DNA from: Geosiphon pyriformis
Taxonomy: Eukaryota; Glomeromycota; Glomeromycetes; Archaeosporales; Geosiphonaceae
DNA: 28,277 nucleotides
NCBI GenBank assembly: GCA_016748015.1
Contig: JAAOMT010000269.1
Coordinates: forward strand, 1 to 28,277
Direction: 5' to 3'
Below the pieces are notes generated by a model. That model saw only the letters and a list, made by a program, of their open reading frames with translations. It ran no database searches and was not told the DNA's origin. Each line of letters begins with the position of its first letter. Position 1 is the first letter of the stretch. The position numbers and the translations under genes are program-made. Below, piece by piece: positions 1 to 20,945 of this stretch.

Positions 1-2566
1 AAATTTTTTGTTTATAATAATTTCTTTTTGCAGTTTTTTGGTTTAAGTTGAAAATATTTTTTTATTTAAAAACTTTTGAAATAGGATAAATAAAAATTTG
101 CATGTAATTTTATTTTTTACAATTTATGAAGCTTTTTTGAATTAATATTTAAATTTATGTATATTAATAATTAAACTTTTTATTAATTGAAAATAATATT
201 TTTTGATAAAAAATTTTCAAATTTAATTTAAATTTTCATAATTTTAGATAAATATATAATAATAATTGTAAGAAAGTTTTTTAAGTGTAAAAAATATTTT
301 AATTTTTAAAATTAATTTAAAATATTTTTTTGATTATTTAAAAAAATTAAGCATATATTAATAATAATTTTAAAATTATTTTATTTTATACAACATTCTT
401 TCTACTAAATTTATTTTCTACAAATATTTATAGAAATTTAACTCTTGAAATCAAACAATAGATTTAAACTTTAATTGAATAAAAAAAATTGTTTTAGAAT
501 TAAATTAATTCTTGATTAAATTCTATTTTTTTTAATAATAAAACTGTATTATATAAAAACTTTAAAATACTACAACTAATTTGACAAGTACTAGTTTTTA
601 CATTAAAACTAATAATGTTATTTAAATTGTTTAAAATATTTAATCTTTAAAATAAAAATTATGTTAATCATAGAAAATATCTATTTTTATTAAATACTAT
701 AAAAATATGATTAAAATAGCCACATAAATGTTTAAAAAATGTTTTTACTTTGTTAAAAACTTTACTTTTTGATTTTTCTGAATAAACACACTAATTTTAA
801 AGTTTAGATATTAATTAACACAACTAACTTAACTGAAGTTAAAAAAAGGTTTTGTTTAATAAGATGTTTTTTAATATTATTTATTTATTTTTTATTTAAA
901 ATTTTTCTTAGTAAATTTGAAAATTGTTTTAAAGTATTTTATTTTAAATTAATTTAGTTTTAAACATAAATATAAATTTTTATAAAAGACTAATATTATT
1001 TTTAATATTTCTTTAAAGTTAATTTTTTAAAAATTGAATATTTTGCTGTTTATAAGCAAAATAATTAGAATATCTATTATTATTAAATAAATACTATTTA
1101 ATAATATTCTTAATAATAATTTTTAAGTTTTTTAATATATTAGATATATTTTTTTATATAGAAATTTTTACACTAATAATTTTTTATTTATTGGTTTAAA
1201 AAATTTAAAGCAATATAATTAAGTAGTTAAGATAAATTAGTTAAGATAATTTTATATTTTTTGTAAAATAATTAAAATAAAATAAATATTCTTAATTTTT
1301 TTAAAAATTTAGTTTTATATAATAAAATATATATTTGTATTAATAAATCACTTTTAATATTTCAAAAAATTTATTAATTAAAATTTTTTCATGTTTATAA
1401 AATATTATATATTATTTAATTATAGTTGTATAATTTTTTAAACTTTAAATTTGTAAATCAAGTTATTTTTTTGTATATAATAATCTAGTTTACATTAAAA
1501 TTTACACAATAATTTTAATTAAGAAGTAAAATTTGCAAGCAATACAAATTTAATTGTTTTTTAACAAAAAAATAATATTTATAAATAAAAAATATTCAAA
1601 ATTATATATTGTTAATTTATATTAAACTAAGTCTTAAATCAAAAAATAAAATTTTAAAAGAACAAATATTAAAAATTAATAAAATATTATTATTATTAAG
1701 TATTAATATTGTTAAAATTAAAATAACTATTTTTATTTATTTATTTATAGAATAGCAAAATATACAGATTGTTTAATAGTTATTTTTTAATTATTATTAG
1801 TATTTTTATTGTTTTATAATATTTAAAAGTTTTTTGTATTAGATATTATAATTATTAAATAATTTATTATAAAAAAAATCAGAGTTTATAAATTAACTTA
1901 ACTATAGTTTAATTTTATATTAGGTTTTTTTTTCATAATATATTAATGTAATTTTATTATTGTTGTTTTATAGTCTATTTTTTTAAAATTTTTTACAGAT
2001 TATAAATTTTTTAAAAAAAAATTATTAATTAAATATTAGTTTAATAACTTTATGATTTAATTTTGTTTTCTAATCTAATTTTTTATTATTTTTTATTCTT
2101 ATTATTAAAATTCTAGTCGTTATTAAAGCATATTTAAGTTTTAATTATATTTAAAACTTAATAACTTTTTATTAATCTTAAATTTATAGTTATTTTTTAA
2201 AGTATATTTTTATTCTAATTATATTACTCAAATTATGATTGAAATTTGTTTGTTATTAAAAGTATTATGAACAAATTATGTTTTATTTTCTGTTTTTTAA
2301 GATACTTTATATAAATTTCAACTGTTTTTATTATTAATATTATTATATACACAAAACATTTCTTTAGTTTTTTATAGAAGTTTTTTAGAATTCTAATTAT
2401 TATTATTATTATTATATTAAAAAAAATTACTATCTTTTTTTGAAAACAATTTTTAAACATATATTTTTTATGCAAATTAATAATTAGTTTTTTACTTTAA
2501 TTTATATTGTAATATCAAAAAAATTAATAATTAAACTTTATATTTGTTATTTTTAACATAAATAAT
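1..2566. other. AT-rich desert without a recognisable gene
   Basis: This stretch is made almost entirely of A and T homopolymer runs and TAA/TTA-type simple sequence, including an ATT microsatellite near 2395-2415. The longest open frame (minus, 2233-2475) is Lys/Ile/Asn/Phe low-complexity and resembles no family I know; I read it as chance. There is essentially no CpG. I see no RNA gene, terminal repeat or protein relic. It may be transposon sequence decayed beyond recognition, but nothing here proves that. Confidence 0.7.
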
Positions 2567-2960
2567 TAAATATTTTATTTATTTATTTATTTATTTTAAT
2601 GAGTAAAGTCCAAACACTACCTAATACTATACATCAAAGAAATAATCTAAATTAAGTGTGAATCATGTACTTTTTACATGTGACCAGCCACTAGGGTCAG
2701 TCAGAACAACACTACACAGCTATGCAAACTGAAATTGCATTACAAATGCCTGAAAAAAACAAACACTGCCTGTGAAAACCAAAACAAATACTGAAAGCCT
2801 CAACAACACTCAACAAATTGATTATACCAGCAGAAAACCTCGATAACAAACCAAACACCAAAATAGAAGCCAAACTGCTTAAAAGAATCAACTTATGTTT
2901 TTCCATATATGCACAATGTTTCACGTGAACCAACCAGATATTATCTTTGATAAATATTTT
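2567..2960 (-). mobile_element. 5'-truncated LINE copy with tail and candidate target-site duplication
   Basis: On the minus strand this holds the last roughly 78 codons of a LINE ORF, its stop (2712-2714), a 3' UTR of about 115 bases, and a tail of (AAAT) units, seen as (ATTT)n on the plus strand near 2577-2600. The 10-mer TAAATATTTT lies directly outside both ends, at 2567-2576 and 2951-2960. This is the arrangement expected of target-primed reverse transcription. The 3' UTR aligns by eye with that of the plus-strand LINE ending near 18750: both have TTGGTCA/CTGGTCA followed by ATGTAA, and both end in TTGGACTTTACT. In such AT-rich DNA a 10-bp match could be chance, but its position at both boundaries argues for a true duplication. 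Confidence 0.75.
2712..2950 (-). pseudogene. LINE ORF, C-terminal end only
   Basis: The frame has no internal stop and reads from ...DNIWLVHVKHCAYMEKHK to ...FFSGICNAISVCIAV. It is the extreme C-terminus of the LINE polyprotein, beyond the RNase H and CCHC parts. The plus-strand LINE carries the related ending ...FAVSFDKCKPCTFFSGL...IYVDM at 18400-18617. There is no start codon of its own: coding runs from the 5' truncation point, so this is not an independent gene. It is better preserved than the two large LINE relics, which suggests a later insertion. The family assignment rests on internal similarity plus recall of Rhizophagus LINEs. Confidence 0.75.
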
Positions 2961-4000
2961 TTAACATATATAATTTTAAGAAAAAAATATTAGTTACCAA
3001 TAATTAAAAAAATTATTGTTTTTAATTTATATTTAACATAATAATTAAATATTTTTTTATGTAAAATTTTAATAAAATTTTTAAGTAATTATTTAAAAAA
3101 AATTTTCAAGAGTTTTTGTTTTATTTTTTTAATAAAAGTTAATAATAAATTTAAAAGATTTAGTGCCTAAAAAAATATATATAAAATAAATTAATATTGA
3201 TAAATTAATTAGAAAAAAAACTGGTTTTTGGTTTTATAATTAAAATATAAAGCTTTATAATTATTTTTTAATAAGCTTTAAGATACCAACACTAATAATT
3301 TATAAATTATTATTAAAGTTAATATTAATTATTAATACATAATTATTATAAATAAGTAAATATTAAAAAGCATTAAAAATAAAATATTAAATTTTTTAAA
3401 TCAAAATTTTTAAAAATTTTGGTAATTTAATAAAAAAATTAATTAAAATTCAAAAAATATAAACAGTTAAAATAATTTATAACAGTAAATAATAATTATT
3501 ATATAATAAAATGCTAATTTTTTTAGGCTTTAATACAAATAAACTGTTTAATTAGCTTTGTTTATAAAGTTATATATAAAAAATTAATAGAGTTTTATAA
3601 CTGTAAAAAAATATTTTCTTAATATTTTTGCTGTTATATTAAATATTAAGATAATTTTAATTATAATATCATAATAATATTAATTTATTAAATTATATTT
3701 TTAACAAATAATATGTTTTTTATAAACTATTATATAAAAAATTGTGAAATATTTTAAAAAGATATATTTTACCGAAAAATTCAAAATCTAAAAAAATATA
3801 ATTTAATATTTAACAATATATTTTATAACTACAATTATATAAATATAAAAAATAATATGATTTTATTATTATTAGATAAATTAAATTTTTTTTATTATAA
3901 TTTTATTTTCTTTTATATTATTTTTTATTATCTAAATTTTTTAAAAAAATTAAGATTTTTTTGGTCTAAAAATTAAAATAAAAAACTTTTTTATATTTAA
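2961..4000. other. AT-rich desert
   Basis: This is simple A/T-rich sequence with short inverted TAAT/ATTA runs and no open frame of note. I recognise no element boundary, RNA gene or protein relic. Confidence 0.65.
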
Positions 4001-4540
4001 CAAAACTTTTAGTACTTGTTATATTTTTTACTAATATATTTTTTATTAAAATAACTTAATATTATTTTACTTTTATAAATTTTTATTTTATAAATATTTA
4101 TAATTAATATTTAAAAAGAAATTTATTAGTATTTAATAAAACTTTTTAGTATTTGTTGTATTTTATGCTAATATGTTTTTTACCAAAATAATTTTATAGT
4201 ATATTACTTTTATATAAGTTTTTATTTTATTAATATTTATAGTTAATATTTAAAAAAAAAATTATTAATATTTAATAAAACTTTTAATACTTGTTATAAT
4301 CTATATTAGTATGTTTTTTTATTAAAATAATTTAATATTATCTTATTTTTATATAGTTTTAAATTTATGAATTCTTATAATAATACTTAAAAAAAAATTT
4401 GTTAATATTTAATAAAACATTTTAGTACTTATTATATTTTTATGTTAATATATTTAATACTATAATAATTTATATTTATATAAACTTTTATTTTTTTTAA
4501 ATTATTTATAATAAATATTTAAAAAATAGTTTTTATAATT
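4001..4540. repeat. Satellite of about 137 bp, roughly four diverged copies
   Basis: A block beginning AAAAC followed by a TTTTAGTACTTGTTATAT-like stretch recurs with the C of AAAAC at 4006, 4142, 4281 and 4418, giving spacings of 136, 139 and 137 bases. Later parts of each unit also line up: a TTTTTTATTAAAATAA-like core, then TTTTTATTTTATAAATATTTATAATTAATATTTAAA-type sequence (described, not quoted exactly), then TTATTAATATTTAATAAAAC leading into the next unit. Copies differ by small indels and transitions, so the array is old. No protein is encoded. Confidence 0.75.
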
Positions 4541-4559
4541 TTTGTTTTTTAATTTTCAT

Positions 4560-4850
4560 TAAGTATAATTTAAACTTAACTAATTTAAAATTTTATGTAA
4601 TTTTTAATCAATAAAAAAACTAAATATATAATATTTTTATAAAATTGTTCTTGAAAATTAATTATATAAATTTTTATATTTTTTTAATTACTTATAATAA
4701 TACTTAATAAGTAAATATAATAATTTTGTTAATTACAATTTAAGTTTTATTTTTTTGAAAATTTTATATAATTTTTAATTAATTAAAAAACCAAATATAT
4801 AATATTTCTATAAAAACTGGTTTTAAAAATTTATTATAAATACTATATAA
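4560..4850. repeat. Duplicated AT-rich block of about 171 bp
   Basis: The segment around 4587-4640 (AAAATTTTATGTAATTTTTAA, then AATATATAATATTT) recurs around 4758-4815 with an offset of about 171 bases. Sequence upstream of both cores also aligns (ATAATTTAAACTTAA against ACAATTTAAGTTTTA). A TTATAATAATACTTAA motif links this block to the third 137-bp unit (near 4375-4390), so the two arrays may be parts of one larger decayed satellite. Confidence 0.5.
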
Positions 4851-5559
4851 AAGTTTTTTTATATAAATTTGTATTTATTAATTTATTTTTAATAATTAAT
4901 TTAGATTTTTAAGTGTTTTATTAATTAAATAAATAACAGTAATCAATAAAAAATTCTCAATATAAATTAAAAAAATACTAATAGTAATACTAATTAATAG
5001 ATTTTTTATTAGTCCAATAATAAATTGATTCAAAATTTAAGCATTAAAGTAATAAATATTTGTTTTTAATTAACAAATTCTTATAAAAAGTTTGTTAAAC
5101 TTCTTAATATAAGTCATAACAAATTTAGAAATATTATTGTTAGTAAACTGTTTAAAAAAAAACAGTTTTAAAAATTTGTTAATTGGCAAAAAAATTGGCC
5201 AAGTTTTTGAATTAGTTTCTTTAAAAAAATAAAGAATTGCTTATAATATTTTTATTGTATTCTATTTGTTTGTATTTTTTGTCTTAGTAACTTAATCAAA
5301 CTATTTTTAAAGACTGGTTTCAATATTTTTTTCAGAAAAATTAGAAATCTTTGTAATATAAACAGTAGCTATTTTATTATTATTATTTTTTTATTATTTG
5401 TGTTTTTTTTTAATTGGTTTAAAAACATTTTTTTATTAGTTAAAGTTTTTAAATGTTTACTTTAATTTTTAATATATAATCAAAAAGTTAGTACTAGTAT
5501 AAATTAATTTTGACTATTAAATAAAATTTTTAATTAAGTTTTTTGGTCTTAAAAACCAA
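4851..5559. other. AT-rich spacer, no gene seen
   Basis: There is no coding relic I can name. The base composition is slightly less extreme than upstream, with occasional GGTTT and CTTGG words, so it may be the eroded remains of another element. Nothing is strong enough to call. Confidence 0.5.
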
Positions 5560-5873
5560 TATTACAAGTAATTGTTTAGAGTATTAAAGCAAATAACAAA
5601 CTCATAATTTGATATTTAATAATAATTAATAATGATAATTTCTAAAGATTTTGAAGTCTGAAAGTTTTGGTTGAATTTTTTATATAATGAACAGAAATTC
5701 AATTGATGGTTTTTTTTGTGAATTTTTTTTTTAGTGTAGTAGCCAATTTATTTTGGCAGTTATGCTTTTCTAATAAATTATTCTTATTTAGCACTTAATC
5801 TTTTAATCAATTAGTAACCAACAAAAAAAATAAAAATAAAAAAATAAAAGAAAATAAGAAAAAAAATAAAAAA
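5560..5873 (+). repeat. Interspersed repeat R, copy 1 (LTR-like or SINE-like)
   Basis: The unit starts TATTACAAGTAATTGTTTAG and ends ACCAACA at about 5823, followed by an A-rich tract to about 5873. It aligns along its length with 23249-23640, where the start reads TGTTACAAGTAATTATTTGG. A TATATAATG box (5681-5689) is conserved in both copies. The TG...CA ends suggest a solo LTR, with TG changed to TA here. The shared A-rich tract after the CA end instead suggests a short retroposon with a tail. I cannot decide between these. The gypsy 5' LTR begins immediately after the A-rich tract. Confidence 0.65.
5681..5690 (+). promoter_or_regulatory. TATA-box-like site in repeat R
   Basis: TATATAATGA at this position is matched by TATATAATGG in the other copy (about 23370-23379), while flanking bases differ. 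Conservation inside a decayed repeat fits an old promoter element of an LTR-like unit, but AT-rich background weakens the claim. Confidence 0.3.
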
Positions 5874-6301
5874 TGCTTTTAGCATAAATGTCTTAAATTT
5901 TAATAATTTGAACTAATCACTCTTGATCATAGCAATTGACAATACTAATTTATTTTTTTTTATTTTTTTATTTTTTATTTTTTTTTATTTATTTTTTATT
6001 TATTTTTATTCTCTTTTATGGAATGGCAATATAAAAAAATCAACTGTTTAAGAATAGACTTCATGATAGTCTGGTAAAAAAAAAAAGCTTCCTTTAAGAT
6101 TAAATATTAATATTATCTTGGTAGCTTACCAGAAGGACAAAAAAACACCATTAAATCCTAATAACTGTGCTTGTTAGCTTGGAGAAAATAGCTTATATTT
6201 ACAACAAAAAGTTACAAAACATGAAAGTAAAAACTCTGTGCTTTATAACCAATAAACTCCACAGATAAATTCATATTAATCAAAAAAATCTTTAAAGACT
6301 A
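5874..6301 (+). repeat. 5' LTR of the gypsy element
   Basis: It starts TGCTTTTAGCATAAATG and matches the 3' LTR from 13491 (TGCTCTTAGCATAAATG) almost throughout. Shared blocks include TGATCATAGCAATT/TGATTATGGCAATT, a long T-rich tract (about 5950-6010), the AGAAGGACAAAAA block, CTTATATTTACAACAAAAAG and ATGAAAGTAAAAACTCTGTG. Similarity fades after about 6295. The exact 3' end is uncertain, because a terminal CA would have to be ACTA here against TACA in the other LTR. Confidence 0.9.
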
Positions 6302-6366
6302 ATAATACTAACACACCAAACTTACTGAAAAAAAATTATCAAAAGCTCTTTAGAAACCCAAATATT

Positions 6367-6422
6367 GAGCACCAAATATTACTACTATATAATCCTAAGT
6401 TTATTCATAATATTTGGTGCTC
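6367..6422 (+). promoter_or_regulatory. Perfect 14-bp stem-loop in the gypsy leader
   Basis: GAGCACCAAATATT (6367-6380) is the exact reverse complement of AATATTTGGTGCTC (6409-6422), with a 28-base loop. It lies about 70-120 bases after the LTR end, in the untranslated leader. The right arm contains TGGTGCTCC (from 6415), which begins with TGG as tRNA-primed primer-binding sites do. A packaging or dimerisation hairpin, or a primer-binding site, is possible; neither is shown. A perfect stem in otherwise decayed sequence is unusual. Confidence 0.6.
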
Positions 6423-6584
6423 CATGTGAGATTATAAAAATTCACAAAAGTAGTGACTTTTAAAATAATAAGAAAAAATTACTCACCATACAGAAAAACA
6501 TTATTTCAATACTTTAGACAAGATTTAAGAATCCCACTTAAAGCTATTACTATTAAAAAAAAATTTTGTCAATATCTATAGGCA

Positions 6585-7790
6585 AAAATTAACTGTCTGT
6601 TAGGCCAAACAACAGACACAGAAAAAATTGAAGAACAAATACACCAAAAATTATTAACATACTTAACAGAAACTATCATTCAAGCCATAACTAAGACCTT
6701 TCATATAATTGATAGAGAAATTAAGAAATACATAACACAACAGTATCTTTAAGTAAAAAGAAAACAATTAACAAAGCCCGATTCTACAGAATTTGAATTT
6801 AAATCTGTTAATACAACAGCTGCACAAGAACAAGTCTAACTTACAGTCAACAAGAAATTAAGGTTTCTTTTACTAAACATTCTGTTATATCATCAGATAC
6901 CAGAAAGTAGAATTTTATTCAACCAACCCATAAAAAAACAAACAAAAACTCCAAGAACTTTTAAAATCCTGTATCTTTGGGGCCATAATAATAATCTTTG
7001 GACAAAATCTCTGAGAGAATATGAATCATTATTTAGAAATCTTATTCTAACAGCCAGCCAACCCAGTGAAAGCATGTCCTTTTAGTTACTATTATTAGCA
7101 CAGTCTTTAACAAAGTTAACAACTATCTCTACAGAAAAAACAGCTATCTTGTTATCCATTGGTCTCAACAAAGAAAAACAACTAGCATTAGCACTCAAAA
7201 AACAATATAGTACTCTACCATCAATTCCCTTAGCCTCAACCAATAAACTATTTCCTATTAATCAGAATATGACTTACTAAAATATTACTAAGCTTGAAAA
7301 ATTTTCCAAAAATGAAAATAATGCATATTTTTGGATTGTAAAAGCCAAAAAAGCAATCACTACCAACAATTGGAATAATAACAAAACAATTCAAGCATTG
7401 CCTTTCTTTTTAACAAGAATAGCAGATTTGTAATACCAAAGTTTTGAAGAGAAACCAACTGACTTTGCTAATATTTTTGCAACCCTAATACACTTATTAG
7501 ATTACAAAATCAGTTCAGCATAATAAAACCAAAAAATTATAAAGCCATAACCACTTATCTTAGACAATTTAATCAAATTTTCTAACAGGTTTAGGTAATT
7601 GAAAGGGACTATTACACACCCAGACAAATTTTTAATCAATTTATCAAAGGATTAAGAAGTAACATCCTACAATTAATAAAACTCTAGCACCCAACAAACT
7701 TACAAAAAGCAGTCTTTTTTACTCATAACTTTGAATCAGCAGAACAAACACCACATTAAAGAGATCAACTATACTGACCTCCAAAATTAA
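6585..7790 (+). pseudogene. gag: Gypsy gag/capsid relic
   Basis: The sequence is broken into short open stretches. The recognisable core is near 7358-7510: TNNWNNNKTIQALPFFL, then ADL*YQSFEEKP, matching the retrotransposon gag pattern in which a W follows the A-x-x-W-Y motif. Here W is a TAG stop. Further on, QIFNQFIKGLRSNILQ-like sequence and an N-F-E-S-A-E motif follow in the same order as in gag proteins of Rhizophagus gypsy elements. No convincing start codon was found. Capsid would form the cytoplasmic particle; this copy cannot make it. The family is inferred from the order and the W-Y motif. Confidence 0.65.
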
Positions 7791-8420
7791 TCTGTATTGA
7801 TTGTGAAAAGAAATTATCTTCAATGAATGTTTGCATTGAAGACAATAAAGTTTGGCCAACTGCCATAAAATATTATTGTTGACTATGTGTATTAAGAAAA
7901 TTCAAACAACCAAAGTAATAGAACAAATAAGACAATACCCTTTGTTTTGTATATAATGAAATTCTATCTGATAAAGATCTATGAAATAATGTTTTTAGAA
8001 GAAAAAAAATCTGTAATGAGTCTTGTCAGTATACCATCTTAATTAATGACTAGATGTGAAAAATAACTTTATTTATTACAGTGTATTAATGAACAATAAA
8101 CCAAATAGAAAACTATTCTTATAACGAAAAAAAATATGAGAAATGGCTTTAGCAAAATATAAAGGAGCCACTATTGAAAAAATACACACCATTAAAAATG
8201 CTTCTGTAATTATCAAAGAAATAGACAATCTATTAACAGATGATCTGAAAACATTCTAAGACCAATACCAAAAATTGGCTCCTACTTGAAAGGAATAAAA
8301 ACAAAGACTAGCTGACTTCAATACAAAGCTGTGCAATTATTGTCTAATTTTTTGCCATTTTCAGCATTGCAACAAGTGCAATTTCTTATTTAATCTGTCT
8401 TCAAGAACATTATATCCTAT
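7790..8420 (+). pseudogene. Cys-rich (zinc-binding type) modules between gag and dUTPase
   Basis: Two Cys clusters are visible. The first starts at 7793: C-I-D-C-E-K-K-L-S-S-M-N-V-C, then about 20 residues later Y-Y-C-(stop)-L-C, a CxxC...CxxC pattern. The second starts at 8332: C-N-Y-C, then C-H-F-Q-H-C-N-K-C. Between them the frame reads an N-E-S-C-Q-Y-T-I-L-I-N-D-(W) stretch and a Lys/Glu-rich linker, with frame changes and a few stops. The second cluster is in frame with the downstream dUTPase-like part. This is not the classical CCHC nucleocapsid knuckle. Nucleic-acid or protein binding through zinc is an inference from the spacing only. Confidence 0.55.
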
Positions 8421-8589
8421 TATGGAATTATTAAAACCCAAAGAAGACCATAAATTAATCATTGAAGACATATTATTTCAAGAACTAAATAAGACTGTTG
8501 AAATAGAACAGTATTTTACTTACTCTGACCTCTCTAAAAAAATAAAATTAAAATAATATAATGACAACCATAAAAAAATATGCTCAGAA

Positions 8590-9351
8590 AAAACACACAA
8601 AACTGATGCTAATTTTGACTTAAGATACTTTGAACAATCACTCATAGTTATAGCTCCACATTTCCTTGTAATAATAGACCTAAAGATAGTCTTAAAAATT
8701 TTTATCAGTATGATAGTACAAGTTACATCTCAATTTAGTCTGGCCAAGAAAAAAATTGATGTAAAAGAAGAAATTATTGACACCAAATATACAGAAAATA
8801 TCATCATAATATTATAAAACAATTCAAACTGACTCTACAAAATTGAGTTACAAGAAAAAATTGCTTAAGCTATTTTTTTGCCTTTCATAAAAATACTCCA
8901 ATTAATTCTAATTATTATATATAAAGAATTAAGCCTCACCACCAGAGAAATTAACAGATTCAAATTGAGTAGAAAAGGAAACATGTCTATTAACTTTATC
9001 AAAAAAGACAGTAACTAAGTAGAACTTGTATATACAGACACAGTCATCTTTATTTCTCCATATCAACAATATATTCTTAAGATAGAAAAAAAGATCCAAG
9101 ATTAAGCCATATTATTTAAAGCCAATCTAGAAATCTGCTTCCTAGCCAATATAGCCAATTTGTATATACCAATCAAAGTTCATAAACATTTAAAAATTCT
9201 CATCTATAATTACACTAAAAATACTATCGAAATTTTAGAAGGAATTCTTATTGGTTTCATATTCCTGAATATTGAGAATTCAGACAGACCACAACTCATT
9301 CCAAATTTTGTGCAATTATTCTTATTTTGCAATATTACTTTGCAAGTATAA
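8590..9351 (+). pseudogene. dUTPase-like domain inside gypsy Gag-Pol
   Basis: The frame beginning H-K-T-D-A-N-F-D-L-R-Y (8596) is a degraded dUTPase motif I (D-A-G-x-D-L). It continues with IIDLKIVLKI, motif II as S-Q-F-S-L-A-K-K, motif III as E-E-I-I-D-T-K-Y-T-E-N-I, motif IV as E-K-I-A-*-A-I-F, and a weak motif V (R-E-I-N-R-F-K-L-S-R). All are in one frame and in the right order and spacing for a trimeric dUTPase. The catalytic Asp of motif III (IID) is kept; two Gly are lost. The open tail to 9351 (LYIPIKVHKHLKI...) is a beta-rich region leading towards RT. The family hydrolyses dUTP to dUMP and pyrophosphate, which would limit uracil in cDNA. This copy is dead. Confidence 0.75.
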
Positions 9352-9459
9352 AACCTGTCAAAAAAAAGTTACTTGTTTATGTTAAAAGAAATCAACAAAT
9401 TAAATTTGGGAAACTTAAGTACACTATAGCAAATACAATTCAAGGTCTTTTTAAATCAA

Positions 9460-10330
9460 TATGCTGATGTTTTTGCTAACAAAAATGAGTTTAGATGTAC
9501 TGATATTATTAAACACCAGATTAATATGGGTGATCTATTAAGCAATAAGCCTATAGAGTAAATCCAACAGGCAATAATTTAATTAAACAGAAGGTACAAT
9601 GAATGCTTGACAATGATCTGATTAAAAAATTACTAAGTTTTTGGTTCTCTCCAATTGTATTAGTCACAAAGAAAAATAGAAAGTTAAGATTCTATATAGA
9701 TTATTGAAAACTAAATAATGTTACTTATGGAGATAATTATCCCACTTCTCTTATTTAAAAAATCTTAGACAATCTGAAAAATAAGAAATAGTTTTCATTA
9801 TTAGACCTTGCCAATAGATATTAGCAAGTCAAGATGAATCCAAAAAACAAAAAAAAAATGGCATTTATCACATGAAATAGAAACTTTAAATTTAATGTAA
9901 TGCTTTTTGGGCTTTGCAATACTTCTGTTACTTTTTAATAGCTAATAAATGTTGTGTATAAAAAAATTCTATAAAAATTAGTTGTAGTATATTTAGACAA
10001 TACCAATGTATTCTCCAAAGCCTTTGATAACCATCTACTTCATCTTAAACAAGTTTTTAAGCACTTTTAGGACACAGAATTAAAACTCAATCCTAACAAA
10101 TGCTTCTTTGGAAAGAAAAAACTAAAATTCTTAAAACATTTAATTAGCAAAGATAGAATTAAACCCAATCTAAACAAAGTACAAAAAGTTAAAAATTTTT
10201 TAGCCCCAACTAATCTATAAGAACTAAAAAAATTTTTAGAACTGGCTAAATACTATTGTTAATTCATTAAAGAATTCTCAGATATTGCTAAACCTCTCTA
10301 TTACTTACTGTTGAAACATATGCCATACCT
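9460..10330 (+). pseudogene. pol: Gypsy reverse transcriptase relic
   Basis: Pre-RT sequence (ADVFANKNEFRCTDIIKHQI) is in the frame of 9463. A frame change near 9540-9600 leads to the RT frame: MLDNDLIKKLLSFWFSPIVL from 9603, then RFYIDY*KLNN, LLDLANRY*QVKMNP, F-G-L-C-N-T-S, VYLDNTNVFSKAF and the NPNKCFFGKKKLKFLKH segment. The catalytic YxDD box reads Y-L-D-N, with the second Asp changed to AAT at 9999-10001. Stops fall at expected Arg (DYR), Trp (GYWQ) and Gln positions. Membership in the gypsy RT family is secure; activity is impossible. Confidence 0.88.
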
Positions 10331-10800
10331 TTAAAGAAAAGAACAGCAAAAAACATTCGATTATCTCAAACAACAATTGCTTATAGCACCAATTTTGATC
10401 TATCCCAACTTCAACAAAAGATTTATAATTACAATAAATGTCTTAAAAAATACATTAGGAACAGTTCTGTCTCAAATTGGATTAAACAACAGAAAACATC
10501 CAATTGCATATGTTAGTTATAGCACAAGTTCAGTGGAAAAAATATACAATACAATAAATTTAAAATGTTTTGCCATCTATTGGGCCATACATACTTGAAA
10601 ACACTATCTTAGTTAACTATTTGACATATATACTGATCATAAAGGGCTTATTTAATTACTTAACAAACTATAACCAGAAGAAAAATATGCATGATAGAGT
10701 ACTTATCTACAACAATTTTTATACAAAGCCTATTATAAAAAAGAATCTAAAAATACCAATACTGACAGTTTATTGAAAATAACACAAGTCTAGTCTCAAA
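10330..10800 (+). pseudogene. pol: Gypsy RNase H relic
   Basis: In frame with RT, 10377-10598 is open and reads LIAPILIYPNFNKRFIITIN, then the GTVLSQIG, HPIAYVSYSTSS and F-A-I-Y-W-A-I-H motifs, typical of gypsy RNase H. The first catalytic Asp (TDAS in active copies) is INVL here. After a TGA where Trp or Gln is expected, the frame continues to DIYTDHKGLI, which retains the TDH motif. Beyond about 10700 the frame shifts. Confidence 0.82.
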
Positions 10801-10979
10801 TTTATAGATACAACCACTTATCAGCAATTACATCAGTACTTATTAACACTTCAATTTAAGAAGATATTACCTTAACAGAAATAAAGTATCATATGAAAAC
10901 AAGCCTAAAAATACTTTATTTAAAATAATCAACTATATTGTTAAGAATGTTAAAATTATATCACTTCACAATGGATTAT

Positions 10980-12092
10980 AAAAGACAATAAACAAGAGAC
11001 TATTTTATATGGCATACATTTTGACCCAATTGCAAAACACTTCAACAAAAATACTACTCTGAAAAAAATCATAAACCAATACTATTGGCCAACAATATAT
11101 AAAGATATTTTTAAATACATGCTCAATTGTAACTTTTGCCAAAAAAGAGGAAGAACAAAATCAATGAAACCACTTCAATCTATTCTAGTTAGAAATTTAT
11201 TTGATAGAATTGGAATTAATTTGGTTAGTTCTCTCTTAATTACATCTAAAAAAAATTGTTATATAGCTGTAGCAGTAGACTATCTTACAAAATAGTTAGA
11301 AGTTAGAGCAATTCAAGTGGCCAATGCCAAAACAATAGCTGAATTTATATATTAAGACCTAATTTGCTGACATAAGTGTCCAAAAAAATTATTATTAGAC
11401 CAAGGAACTTACTTTGTCAATAGTATGTTAATTAAACTAAGCTAACAGTTTGGAATAAAATGATCTCTTTTATTATTATACCACTCACAAACAAATGAAC
11501 TGGTAGAACAATTTAACTGGATGTTGTATAAAGCATTAGCAAAAATAAGCTACAAAAATACACAAGAATAGGACCTATTTATATTTTCTATATTATTTGT
11601 ATATCAAACATTAAAACAAGATATGACCTAGTTTACACTATTCAAATTAGTCTATAAAAAAAAAGCCACCTTATCTATTGAACAAGAAATACTATCTTAC
11701 TTAACAGAAGTAATTACAAAAGAAAATTTTGAAGCTATTTTGTACCAAAGAACATATCAGCTTATAGAAACATTGAAAGACAACCACAGAACAGCAGTTA
11801 ACAATATTAGTAATTCTCAAGAACAACAGAAAAAAAGACATGATAACTATTTATTTAAACAATTAATAGAATTTAAGATTGAAGACCAAGTACTGTTATA
11901 TTGTACAAAAGCTAAAAAACAGTGGAGTAGAAAGTTTAACCTAAAGTAGAATGGTCTATTTTATATACATGAAGCTTTAAGCAATAGAGCTTACAAATTA
12001 TGATTGGAAAACAGAATTTTAAAAAAAGTAGTACATGGAAATTGGTTAAAAATTTATCATACAAAACAAAAGTCATTGTTATCTGTATCTTA
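10980..12092 (+). pseudogene. pol: Gypsy integrase relic
   Basis: In the frame of 11740 the sequence reads an H2C2 zinc-binding region (KHFNKNTTLKKI, QYYWPTIYKDI, C-N-F-C-Q), then the catalytic core. The core has FDRIGINLVSS with the first catalytic Asp changed to Asn at 11218-11220, LLLDQGTYFVNS with the second Asp kept, and NELVEQFN with the Glu kept. The stretch 11740-11949 is open. The C-terminal part ends in a KIEDQVLLY motif and an NGNWLKIYH-like tail (12040-12060). No chromodomain is visible. Trp and Gln codons have become TAG/TAA at several points. Integrase would join the element's cDNA to chromosomal DNA. Confidence 0.87.
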
Positions 12093-12244: not shown

Positions 12245-13078
12245 ATGAATCTGTCAAATCAAATTCTACAACTCTCAAAACAACTATTTGAAATAATTTA
12301 ACAATTAACATTTCAACTAAAAATTATCATCAATAAAAAAAAAATAAGATACAGAAACAAAAAAAAGAAAAAGATGAACAAAAATTTAACTAAAACCAAC
12401 TATTTTTATCTCTACACAATGTCCAAAAGGAAAGAATTAGAAAAAAAAAATTTTTCTTGGACAAAACATAGAAAAAAAGAGAGAGAGAAACTAAAAAAAG
12501 TTAAAAAGAAAAAATATTTAGTCTTTAAGCTAGAAAAAATTAAAGTTTCTTTAGTTTATGAGATTGAACTCTTTGAAACAAAGAAATAGACACTAAACAA
12601 TGTCCAAAAATGAAAAAAAAAACTTCCTCCAGTATATTGGTTCTACAAAATTGATAAAAAGCTAGATTTGAAAACACTATATAAAGACTTTGAACAGAAA
12701 ACTTTTAACAAAGAAGCAATGCAACAAGTAGAAAAATTTTTAGGAAAAAGCAATTTGATTTTATATTACAAAGTAGCATACTGATTGTATACTACTTTCC
12801 AACAATGTTTAAATATACTGTTATATGAATCTATAAAGACTATAACAATTAACAACATAGAATGAATAACCAACCAACAATTTAAAAACCTACAAAAAAC
12901 AATACTTAATACAACAATTGAATATTACATAAATAAAGTTATGATAACAGATATAGATGATTTTGGAGGAGCTCAATTCTAAAAAGACTGGGATAATATT
13001 ACTTAAGTAAGAAAACCAATTCAAAATTATAGAGAAAACATGACCAAAAACATGACAACACAAAATAATACAAGATAA
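12245..13078 (+). pseudogene. Extra ORF downstream of integrase, function unknown
   Basis: One frame runs for about 277 codons from ATG at 12245 to TAA at 13076, interrupted by only seven stops (12299, 12587, 12611, 12782, 12863, 12980, 13004), and there is no frameshift. Most stops can be undone by one transition to Gln, Arg or Trp. The predicted protein begins MNLSNQILQLSKQLFEII and has a Lys/Glu-rich, probably coiled-coil segment (about residues 40-115). It then has a more globular part with LPPVYWFYKIDKKLDLKTLY, KDFEQKTFN and YTTFQQCLN motifs. It sits where envelope genes lie in some gypsy elements, but shows no signal peptide or membrane span. I do not recognise the family beyond a memory of similar reading frames next to Rhizophagus gypsy elements. 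Confidence 0.6.
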
Positions 13079-13245: not shown

Positions 13246-13490
13246 ATAACAGAAATAACAAAGCAATCAGAAGCAATCCTATAAAACAAATAAAAATATA
13301 TAAAAATGAGTAGCTGTAAAAATTAAAAAAACATCCAGAAAAGAATCAATTTTCTTCTTTCTTATAATTATTATATCTTAAAAAAATAAAAGACTTATTT
13401 GAAAACACAAAAATCATCAATATATGGTCATCAATCATTTTGTGTTTGAATTAAACTAATCTTTATTTCATATTTTTGTTTCAAGACAAA

Positions 13491-13899
13491 TGCTCTTAGC
13501 ATAAATGCTTCAAACCTTAATAATCTGAACTAATTGCTTTTGATTATGGCAATTAATAATACTAATTTATCTTCTTCTATTTTTTTTTTTTTTTTTATTT
13601 ATTTTTATTCTCTCTTATGAAGTGGCAACATAGAAAAATTGACTGTCTGAAAATAAACTTTGTGATAGTTTGGTAAAAGAGAAAAGCTTCTCTTAGAATT
13701 GAATATTAATATTATTTTGGTAGCTTAGCAGAAGGACAAAAAGACACCACCAGATCTTAATGACTACATTTATTAGTTCGGAGAAGATAGCTTATATTTA
13801 CAACAAAAAGTTGCAAAGCATGAAAGTAAAAACTCTGTGTCTTATAACCAATGAACTCTATAAGTAAATTTATATCAATTAAAAAAATTTTTAGATACA
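13491..13899 (+). repeat. 3' LTR of the gypsy element
   Basis: It starts TGCTCTTAGCATAAATG and aligns with 5874-6301 with indels and many transitions. The internal T-rich tract is at about 13576-13610. Similarity ends near 13893-13899 (TTTTTAGATACA). No clear polypurine tract precedes it; the bases just upstream (TTTGTTTCAAGACAA) are mixed. LINE coding sequence begins within about 10 bases of its right end. Confidence 0.88.
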
Positions 13900-14004
13900 A
13901 TTATAAACTTTTTAGCCAAAGTAGACAATTTTGTTTTAGTGTTAAGATTTTTTTTCTTAATGATCAGTCTTGTTTAAAAGTTTGCTATATGTAATGTTAA
14001 AAAT

Positions 14005-19700: not shown

Positions 19701-19945
19701 ATGCTCATTATTTAACACATCTAAATCATCTTTTATCTTGGCCCAATTTACAGAAATGTTTTTATTTTTGACCAAATTATTAACATAATAATACTTTATC
19801 CAATATCTGTTGTAAAAATTAAGTGCTACTAATTTTAATTTAGTTTAATATATATTGTTACAGTTTAAGAATTTAGCAAAAAAATCATAAAAATAATACA
19901 AACTATTCAATCATAATATAGCACAGTAATAATCTTAGAAAGGTA
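19700..19945 (-). pseudogene. Minus LINE RNase H, C-terminal half
   Basis: On the minus strand the frame reads KLVALNFYNRYWIKYYYVNN, LVKNKNISVNWAKIKDDLDV and LNNEHANKLTD. This is the end of an RNase H domain: the R-x-W-x-K-x-K-(G-H) helix turned into N-W-A-K-I-K-D-D, then the N-x-x-A-x-x-L-A-D block. The upstream half of the domain lies beyond the insert, at 20715-20940. Confidence 0.75.
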
Positions 19946-19955
19946 ATGATTAACA

Positions 19956-20047
19956 TAGTAGCAAACACCATCTCGCAATAGTGGCAAGCACTAGTTCACA
20001 ATAGCAGCCAACACCAACTGGTGATAGCAGCAAACACCAGGTTGAAA
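19956..20047. repeat. 23-bp minisatellite, four units
   Basis: Units start at 19956, 19979, 20002 and 20025, each of exactly 23 bases and each beginning TAGTAGCAAACACCA, TAGTGGCAAGCACTA, TAGCAGCCAACACCA or TAGCAGCAAACACCA. The first 15 positions are conserved; the last eight vary. There are no indels between units, so the array is young or constrained compared with its surroundings. Confidence 0.85.
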
Positions 20048-20448
20048 TATCAAAAAGAAAGTATTACAATGTGTTTTCTCATAGAACTACAAACATGTAT
20101 ATATACAGTAGCTTTAATATTGGGAAAAGACAATCAAGTAATAAAAATCATAACTTACCAAGCAATAGATCTAATTTTATCCAACAAACTCCACTTTAAA
20201 TTATACTTTTAAATTAAATATCTCAAGAAATCTTTAAATCAAAAAGAAATGAAAAAGAATATTTAAAACTGAATTATCATAACTCAAAGTATTAAAAAAC
20301 TTACTTGTATTATTTATTGAATGAAATTATCATTCATCAGCTAAATTCCTTGGAAGAATAATCCTTGATCAAGATTATTTACGTTGTTACTAATTGATAA
20401 AAGCTTTATTGTAAGAATTAAGAAAAGCACTAAAAGCCATTAATATTC

Positions 20449-20473
20449 TGTGTTTCTAGATTAGAGAAACACA
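20449..20473. repeat. Perfect 9-bp hairpin within the insert
   Basis: TGTGTTTCT (20449-20457) and AGAAACACA (20465-20473) are exact reverse complements around a 7-base loop AGATTAG. It could be a structural end of a small non-autonomous element or a transcript hairpin; nothing else supports a role. Confidence 0.55.
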
Positions 20474-20714
20474 TTAGGCAATTGCAAGAATAGCTTCAGA
20501 GAAGACCCCAAACAGCGGGTAGATTTCAGTTCAGCCTCTGAAAAGAAGTACATAAACACACACAACAATCAAGAATCGAGGAATAACTTACATCATGACA
20601 TTAAAAAGAAAGCCTTCAGTATAACAATGACATTATCACACAAATAGAATTGAGAAACTCACAAAAGACTAATTGCAAGTAAAACGGGATATCGGCAATT
20701 AAATATAACAAGAA

Positions 20715-20945
20715 AACCATCTCATAACAACATCTAAAAAAGTCTAACTGTTAGATAAATTGTAATTTTGAATAAAATTGGAATACATTTAAGAATCAGA
20801 GCAATAGTTTGTATCTTAGCCAGAATTAAAGACAACAATTCATTAATTTCTAAACTTGTATACAAACTTAGATCAGAAAAGTAGGCAGTTATATTATCTA
20901 TAGCACCAAAAAGCCAAAGTTTTTAACTAAACTATTAGTGTAAAT
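20715..20945 (-). pseudogene. Minus LINE RNase H, N-terminal half
   Basis: Read on the minus strand, ...FGAIDNITAYFSDLSLYTSL is followed by EINELLSLILAKIQTIALIL and KCIPILFKITIYL, and after a one-base shift L-S-N-S-*-T-F-L-D. This matches the RNase H order: Ala-rich strand, E-L-x-A-I/L-x-x-A-L-x-C, then L-x-S-D-S-Q-A-x-L-D. The catalytic Asp in S-D-S is Asn, and Gln is a stop. Confidence 0.65.

Follow-up and report, generated by a model that had tools for sequence, protein, structure and literature searches.

In the window, a 28,277-nucleotide stretch of the Geosiphon pyriformis genome (Archaeosporales, Glomeromycotina), lies a defunct copy of a Ty3/gypsy retrotransposon. The lineage to which it belongs has a trimeric-type dUTPase whose place in the polyprotein is downstream of the protease and a Cys-rich module and upstream of reverse transcriptase (RT). 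In working elements, this enzyme would have destroyed dUTP near the site of cDNA synthesis. To this reading as a whole we assign a probability of roughly 0.8.

The window copy retains a decayed dUTPase

Trimeric dUTPases are recognized by motifs I to V, with an Asp and a Tyr in motif III. As originally predicted, all five motifs occur in order in a single frame of the window, which opens at 8401, between coordinates 8602 and 8973. Motif I (TDANFDL, 8602-8622) is followed by motif II (SQFSLA, 8728-8745), in which the Arg reads Gln, by an intact motif III (EEIIDTKYTENI, 8767-8802), where the Asp is retained (codon 8779-8781), by motif IV (EKIA*AIF, 8854-8877), with a stop where the Gln belongs, and by a poor, damaged motif V (RFKLSR, 8956-8973). 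The decayed domain as a whole spans 8557..8980 on the plus strand (tblastn 8557-8946, E 6e-30) and contains three in-frame stops, with another just 5' at 8554. When stops were masked as X, the frame matched the Pfam dUTPase family PF00692 with 34.3 bits (cut-off 22 bits) and an E of 2.4e-8, the best stretch being 8590-8892 (profile 8-106 of 129), with motif V outside it. NCBIfam TIGR00576 gave 47.5 bits (E 1.4e-12), under that family's cut-off of 102.55. This significant profile match bears out the prediction of a dUTPase-like domain inside a Ty3/gypsy polyprotein and identifies it as trimeric-type.

The frame is interrupted and its motifs II and V are poor, as might be expected of a chance likeness within an AT-rich frame full of stops. 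We regard the probability of such a coincidence as practically nil, considering the PF00692 E value, the presence of a homologous frame in sister copies, and a control with a profile custom-built from the sequences of four relatives, which scored the window frame at 139.2 bits, the highest score among 2000 residue shuffles being 9.3.

A deletion has removed the protease from the window copy

The dUTPase lies in a plus-strand element bounded by a 5' LTR (5871..6307) and a 3' LTR (13488..13905), which pair with 80% identity over 438 alignment columns. Behind the 5' LTR are gag remains at 6444..7747 (tblastn with P0001, an open relative, E 8.6e-15 and 6.9e-19), including the capsid part at 7284-7747 (tblastn with the capsid piece, E 3.8e-22), a deletion scar at 7748..7780 where the protease, together with the last part of gag, has been lost, and a decayed Cys-rich module at 7781..8379 (tblastn E 1e-23), whose CxxC pattern is conserved among relatives. 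Beyond the dUTPase come a linker to RT at 8981..9540 (tblastn to P0002, reaching residue 890), decayed RT at 9651..10154 (tblastn E 1.9e-52), decayed RNase H at 10344..10739 (tblastn E 3e-29), and a decayed integrase region at 10804..12066 (tblastx to L012, E 3e-120), for which the integrase core of a relative, L018, scored over the cut-off. Remains of a 3' frame follow the integrase at 12251..12976 (tblastn with the 250-aa frame of L012, E 1.9e-27). Subfamily A copies share this frame of about 250 aa with the window (L012 729-1478; L019 758-1507; window 12251-12976), and neither in L012 nor in L019 does it match a Pfam family.

By comparison with P0001, 440 residues' worth is missing between the gag capsid and the Cys-rich module: P0001 residues 472-911, which bear the protease, have no counterpart between window positions 7747 and 7781. 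Among the 11 nearest other copies compared, 9 carry a protease ahead of the Cys-rich module and on its strand; one of the remaining two has a protease match on the other strand only, and one has no match within the stretch examined. Since 9 of the 11 sister copies keep it, protease loss is not common to most sisters. Judging from these alignments, the Cys-rich stretch belongs between protease and dUTPase, and the deletion placed it beside gag in the window copy. The predicted order of Cys-rich region, dUTPase, and RT thus held for this copy, but the gag-proximal position of the Cys-rich region is the outcome of a deletion.

Elsewhere in the window, an apparently solo LTR-like sequence of subfamily A type lies at 19854-20730 (tblastx to the L012 and L013 flanks), and second gag remains lie on the minus strand at 4995-5456, nearest to the L014/L018 type among four loci compared. 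A search of the window against Rfam gave 0 matches.

The domain order is shared by relatives

Following the suggestion that related intact elements be searched for the same order, we inspected 12 long loci picked for their long open frames. All 12 display gag, protease, Cys-rich module, and dUTPase in this order on one strand, followed by RT in 8 loci and by RNase H in 7; in the long loci without RT or RNase H, the expected site is masked or truncated by a stretch of N. Pfam families detected in the open frames of relatives are Ty3_capsid gag, protease, dUTPase, RVT_1, and RT_RNaseH, with an rve core in a further fragment. PF00692 scores in relatives are 61-87 bits, so a profile match is found both in the window and in its kin. 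LTRs, a Ty3-type capsid, and the order PR-RT-RH-INT place the lineage in Ty3/gypsy (Metaviridae), PR having been lost from the window copy. A CX2CX4HX4C zinc knuckle is visible by eye behind the capsid in P0001, where Pfam reported none. A chromodomain after the integrase would mark a chromovirus; there was no chromodomain match in the scanned open 3' fragments, which cover the integrase ends of only some copies.

A conserved Cys-rich module precedes the dUTPase

In the Cys-rich module (P0002 numbering), C312 is conserved in 20 of 23 aligned rows and C315, C340, and C343 each in 21 of 23; C362, C365, and C389 are conserved in 28/28 and C385 in 28/29; and, closest to the dUTPase, C493 is found in 25/26, C496 in 23/25, C500 in 19/22, C505 in 20/22, and C508 in 22/22. 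This pattern suggests three putative zinc sites. The module has neither a profile nor a fold match to known zinc-binding families: its best Pfam E was 0.14, under the cut-off, and its predicted structure (moderate confidence, mean pLDDT 70.8) gave 0 matches in the PDB at E <= 0.001. Helices are confident in the Cys-rich part of the models, with an unsure overall arrangement. We considered that the region might be a gag zinc knuckle, which was rejected on account of its position between protease and dUTPase and its own conserved Cys pattern.

A search with the Cys-dUTPase stretch returned 45 proteins at E <= 1e-5, of which 42 are from Geosiphon. One of the three others (P0013) spans the whole stretch with 48% identity, and a fragment from Racocetra fulgida shows, by eye, the last Cys site and then the dUTPase. 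Separately, P0049, a distant dUTPase-bearing Ty3/gypsy polyprotein, has four repeated Cys motifs upstream of its dUTPase (by eye), an arrangement that may parallel the Cys-rich module.

Better-preserved copies have canonical motifs and a pattern of past purifying selection

Our search of the 124.7 Mb genome scored 150 dUTPase places, every one over the cut-off; these were taken from 3181 first-look candidates, and counts are therefore lower bounds skewed to well-kept copies. We aligned 69 of the 150 places (subfamilies A, 29; B, 23; and C, 17) with the window and 11 of 39 further places (subfamily E), after 12 duplicate loci had been removed and four two-piece loci reduced to one piece (the longer, or one of the two). 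Among the 69 better-preserved copies, the motif III Asp is present in 62 and the Tyr and the motif IV Gln in all 69. Motif V and the catalytic Asp, whose absence from all intact copies would have refuted the prediction, are present in most of the 69. All nine chosen residues are found without any stop in 28 of the 69 copies (A, 12/29; B, 9/23; C, 7/17) and in 0/12 of E, and none of the 12 aligned copies of the window's own subfamily is stop-free. The motif III Asp itself is kept in 28/29 copies in A, 21/23 in B, 13/17 in C, and 4/12 in E, with Asn replacing it in 4/17 copies of C and 8/12 of E, the subfamily of the window.

Codon comparisons used a sample of 50 copies without stops. Between subfamilies B and C, median dN and dS were 0.101 and 0.837 (192 pairs), a dN/dS of about 0.12, which argues for past purifying selection and past function. 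Medians for A versus B (0.385 and 1.65) and A versus C (0.403 and 1.80) are both near saturation. Within subfamilies, pooled dN/dS was 0.36-0.47, a weaker signal than between B and C, which would be expected from decay after insertion but also from relaxed constraint.

For the Cys-dUTPase stretch of one open copy, L013, TIGR00576 scored 102.9 bits against the cut-off of 102.55. A structure prediction of this stretch, also proposed originally, yielded the dUTPase beta fold, with pLDDT of about 77-93 in the dUTPase part and 65 and lower in the C-terminal motif V arm. This model gave 259 PDB matches at E <= 0.001; the best 50 of the 259 are dUTPase entries, with a target-normalized TM of about 0.6-0.8 to these solved structures.

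The domain might instead be retained for a structural or regulatory job, such as assembly or binding to a host protein, with catalysis secondary or lost. In motif III, Asn or His replaces the Asp in 7 of the 69 better-preserved copies, and a dUTPase-like protein of the bovine lentivirus BIV is described, in the portion of the report available, as needed yet without dUTPase activity (PMC4261571), so that a non-enzymatic role is conceivable for the element domain. We consider this unlikely given the conservation of the Tyr, Gln, and Asp noted above, and given that a G-to-A substitution, one of the two kinds that prevail in the decay, turns Asp into Asn. An enzymatic role in working elements is the reading that we prefer.

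The element dUTPase is distinct from the host gene

Geosiphon also has its own DUT, a multi-exon gene on C262 (exons by eye) with a cellular-type motif II. Since all 150 scored places show <=37% identity, we had entertained that the host lacked DUT, an idea abandoned once a DUT exon and its surrounding exons were found. A 39-row tree unites 16 of the 17 element rows in a single branch (support 100/98) and places host DUT with yeast (99/95), apart from the elements; the 17th element row, P0049, sits on a long branch whose placement is unsure, and the bootstrap of the tree is not fully settled. The sampling of the tree leaves out Dikarya and bdelloid element sequences. This phylogeny shows the element dUTPase as a lineage separate from host DUT.

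Retroelements are known to capture domains. Fungal elements in particular seem, according to the available text of one report, to have gained dUTPase independently and from different sources (PMC2864245), and the domain might thus have been captured recently from host DUT, with no long history in the element. The tree largely refutes this scenario, which we hold to be very improbable: the host gene is multi-exon, of cellular type, and grouped with yeast, and predicted proteins matching the element type occur in Racocetra fulgida and Ambispora gerdemannii.

The AT-richness of the window copy points to decay after insertion

The dUTPase codons of the window copy have a GC of 0.25, versus 0.33-0.42 in the 69 copies (34-42% in the stop-free ones), and 67 of the 72 substitutions between the LTRs of the window element are transitions. 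Because other copies have higher GC and the LTR changes are dominated by transitions, the AT-richness of the window copy is most simply explained by decay after insertion. We tallied changes at the 213 columns conserved in 90% or more of the 69 copies. Of 191 changes in those copies, C-to-T and G-to-A make up 147. At these columns the window shows C-to-T in 12/29 and G-to-A in 12/25, along with 32 other changes, so that older subfamily differences are mixed in. Window positions 1-6000 have a GC of just 11-14%, far under the 26-27% at the element's 6001-12000; for the genome, a published table gives 129 Mb, a largest scaffold of 2733.91 kb, 64.35% repeats, and 29.25% GC (PMC9453076).

The original prediction had further proposed that the dUTPase was an adaptation to cytosine deamination in an AT-rich host. 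This found no support and was rejected: the low GC of the window copy looks post-insertion, as judged from the GC of the other copies and the LTR transitions, and dUTPase acts on the dUTP pool, cytosine deamination in DNA being a separate route to uracil in the account consulted (PMC2427051).

As a RIP-type criterion, we used a C-to-T preference for CpA, with CpG outside the tally. In the better-preserved copies, C-to-T changes were 12/413 at CpA, 9/206 at CpC, and 4/138 at CpT on the plus strand and 2/138, 9/343, and 24/549, respectively, on the minus strand. The window subfamily gave 31/66, 8/33, and 6/23 on the plus strand and 4/23, 24/55, and 43/87 on the minus strand. The two strands disagree.

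A possible role in cDNA synthesis

According to the excerpted review, uracil can reach DNA when dUTP is misincorporated or when cytosine is deaminated, and viral replication is altered by the first of these (PMC2427051). In a working element, the protease would release the dUTPase, or a Cys-dUTPase piece, close to RT, where it would remove dUTP at the site of cDNA synthesis. The element sense strand is A-rich, with A at 103 and T at 55 of the 213 conserved columns, and the first cDNA strand would thus be T-rich and the most exposed to dUTP. Lower dUTP would mean less uracil opposite the abundant adenines of the template, and the cDNA might thereby escape host uracil repair. The Cys-rich module, for which we propose three zinc sites, may tether the enzyme inside the particle or to nucleic acid. 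As read from its deleted protease, stopped frame, and damaged motifs II, IV, and V, the window copy is no longer capable of this role. It is not evident why an additional dUTPase should be needed in a host that already has a DUT gene.

A more speculative proposal, to which we give only about one chance in four of being right, is that in a Glomeromycota-wide Ty3/gypsy lineage the Cys-rich module and dUTPase form one functional unit, in which a new zinc-binding domain would dock the dUTPase to the reverse-transcription complex and aid copying in a multinucleate fungus, in which many nuclei are non-dividing and dUTP may be high.

Relation to known dUTPase-bearing elements

Fungal Ty3/gypsy elements with a dUTPase have been in print since 2008. 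LTR-element dUTPases are described, in the text available, from Phanerochaete chrysosporium, Tmt1 of Tuber, and PosPlaTy3 of Postia placenta, and PosPlaTy3-5, like the Geosiphon element, has its dUTPase between PR and RT (PMC2864245). These elements, which we compared by description and not in the tree, differ in having Basidiomycota and Ascomycota hosts, and a Cys-rich module separating protease from dUTPase goes unmentioned in the available portions of their descriptions (PMC2864245). Juno, Vesta, and TelKA of bdelloid rotifers likewise have a dUTPase between PR and RT, but in an animal host; as far as the excerpted report goes, Juno has a Zn knuckle following the dUTPase, whereas the Geosiphon element has a larger Cys-rich module preceding it (PMC5408684). 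In Entomophthora muscae, an early-diverging fungus, PF00692 is enriched alongside retroviral protease families, a likeness of family enrichment without architecture in the available part of that report (PMC11105155). The dUTPases of betaretroviruses and non-primate lentiviruses share the same fold, those of FIV and EIAV being among the structural matches of the L013 model. Retroviral dUTPases are found in other hosts and at other polyprotein positions than that of the Geosiphon element. A comparison of betaretroviral dUTPase with that of fungal chromoviruses has been published (PMC2774666, consulted in part). Among the titles and abstracts listed by a literature search that was thin on subscription journals, none dealt with dUTPase-bearing elements in Glomeromycota or with a Cys-rich module of this kind. 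What looks new here is the finding, in Glomeromycota, of a lineage whose dUTPase has a conserved, unclassified Cys-rich module as its neighbour.

A symbiotic fungal lineage thus joins, with many copies, the short list of retrotransposons carrying their own dUTPase, an enzyme with a codon pattern of purifying selection and distinct from that of the host gene. Because natural copies are plentiful and can be compared with the host DUT, and because the companion module is conserved, the question of why retroelements carry a dUTPase becomes open to direct biochemical test.
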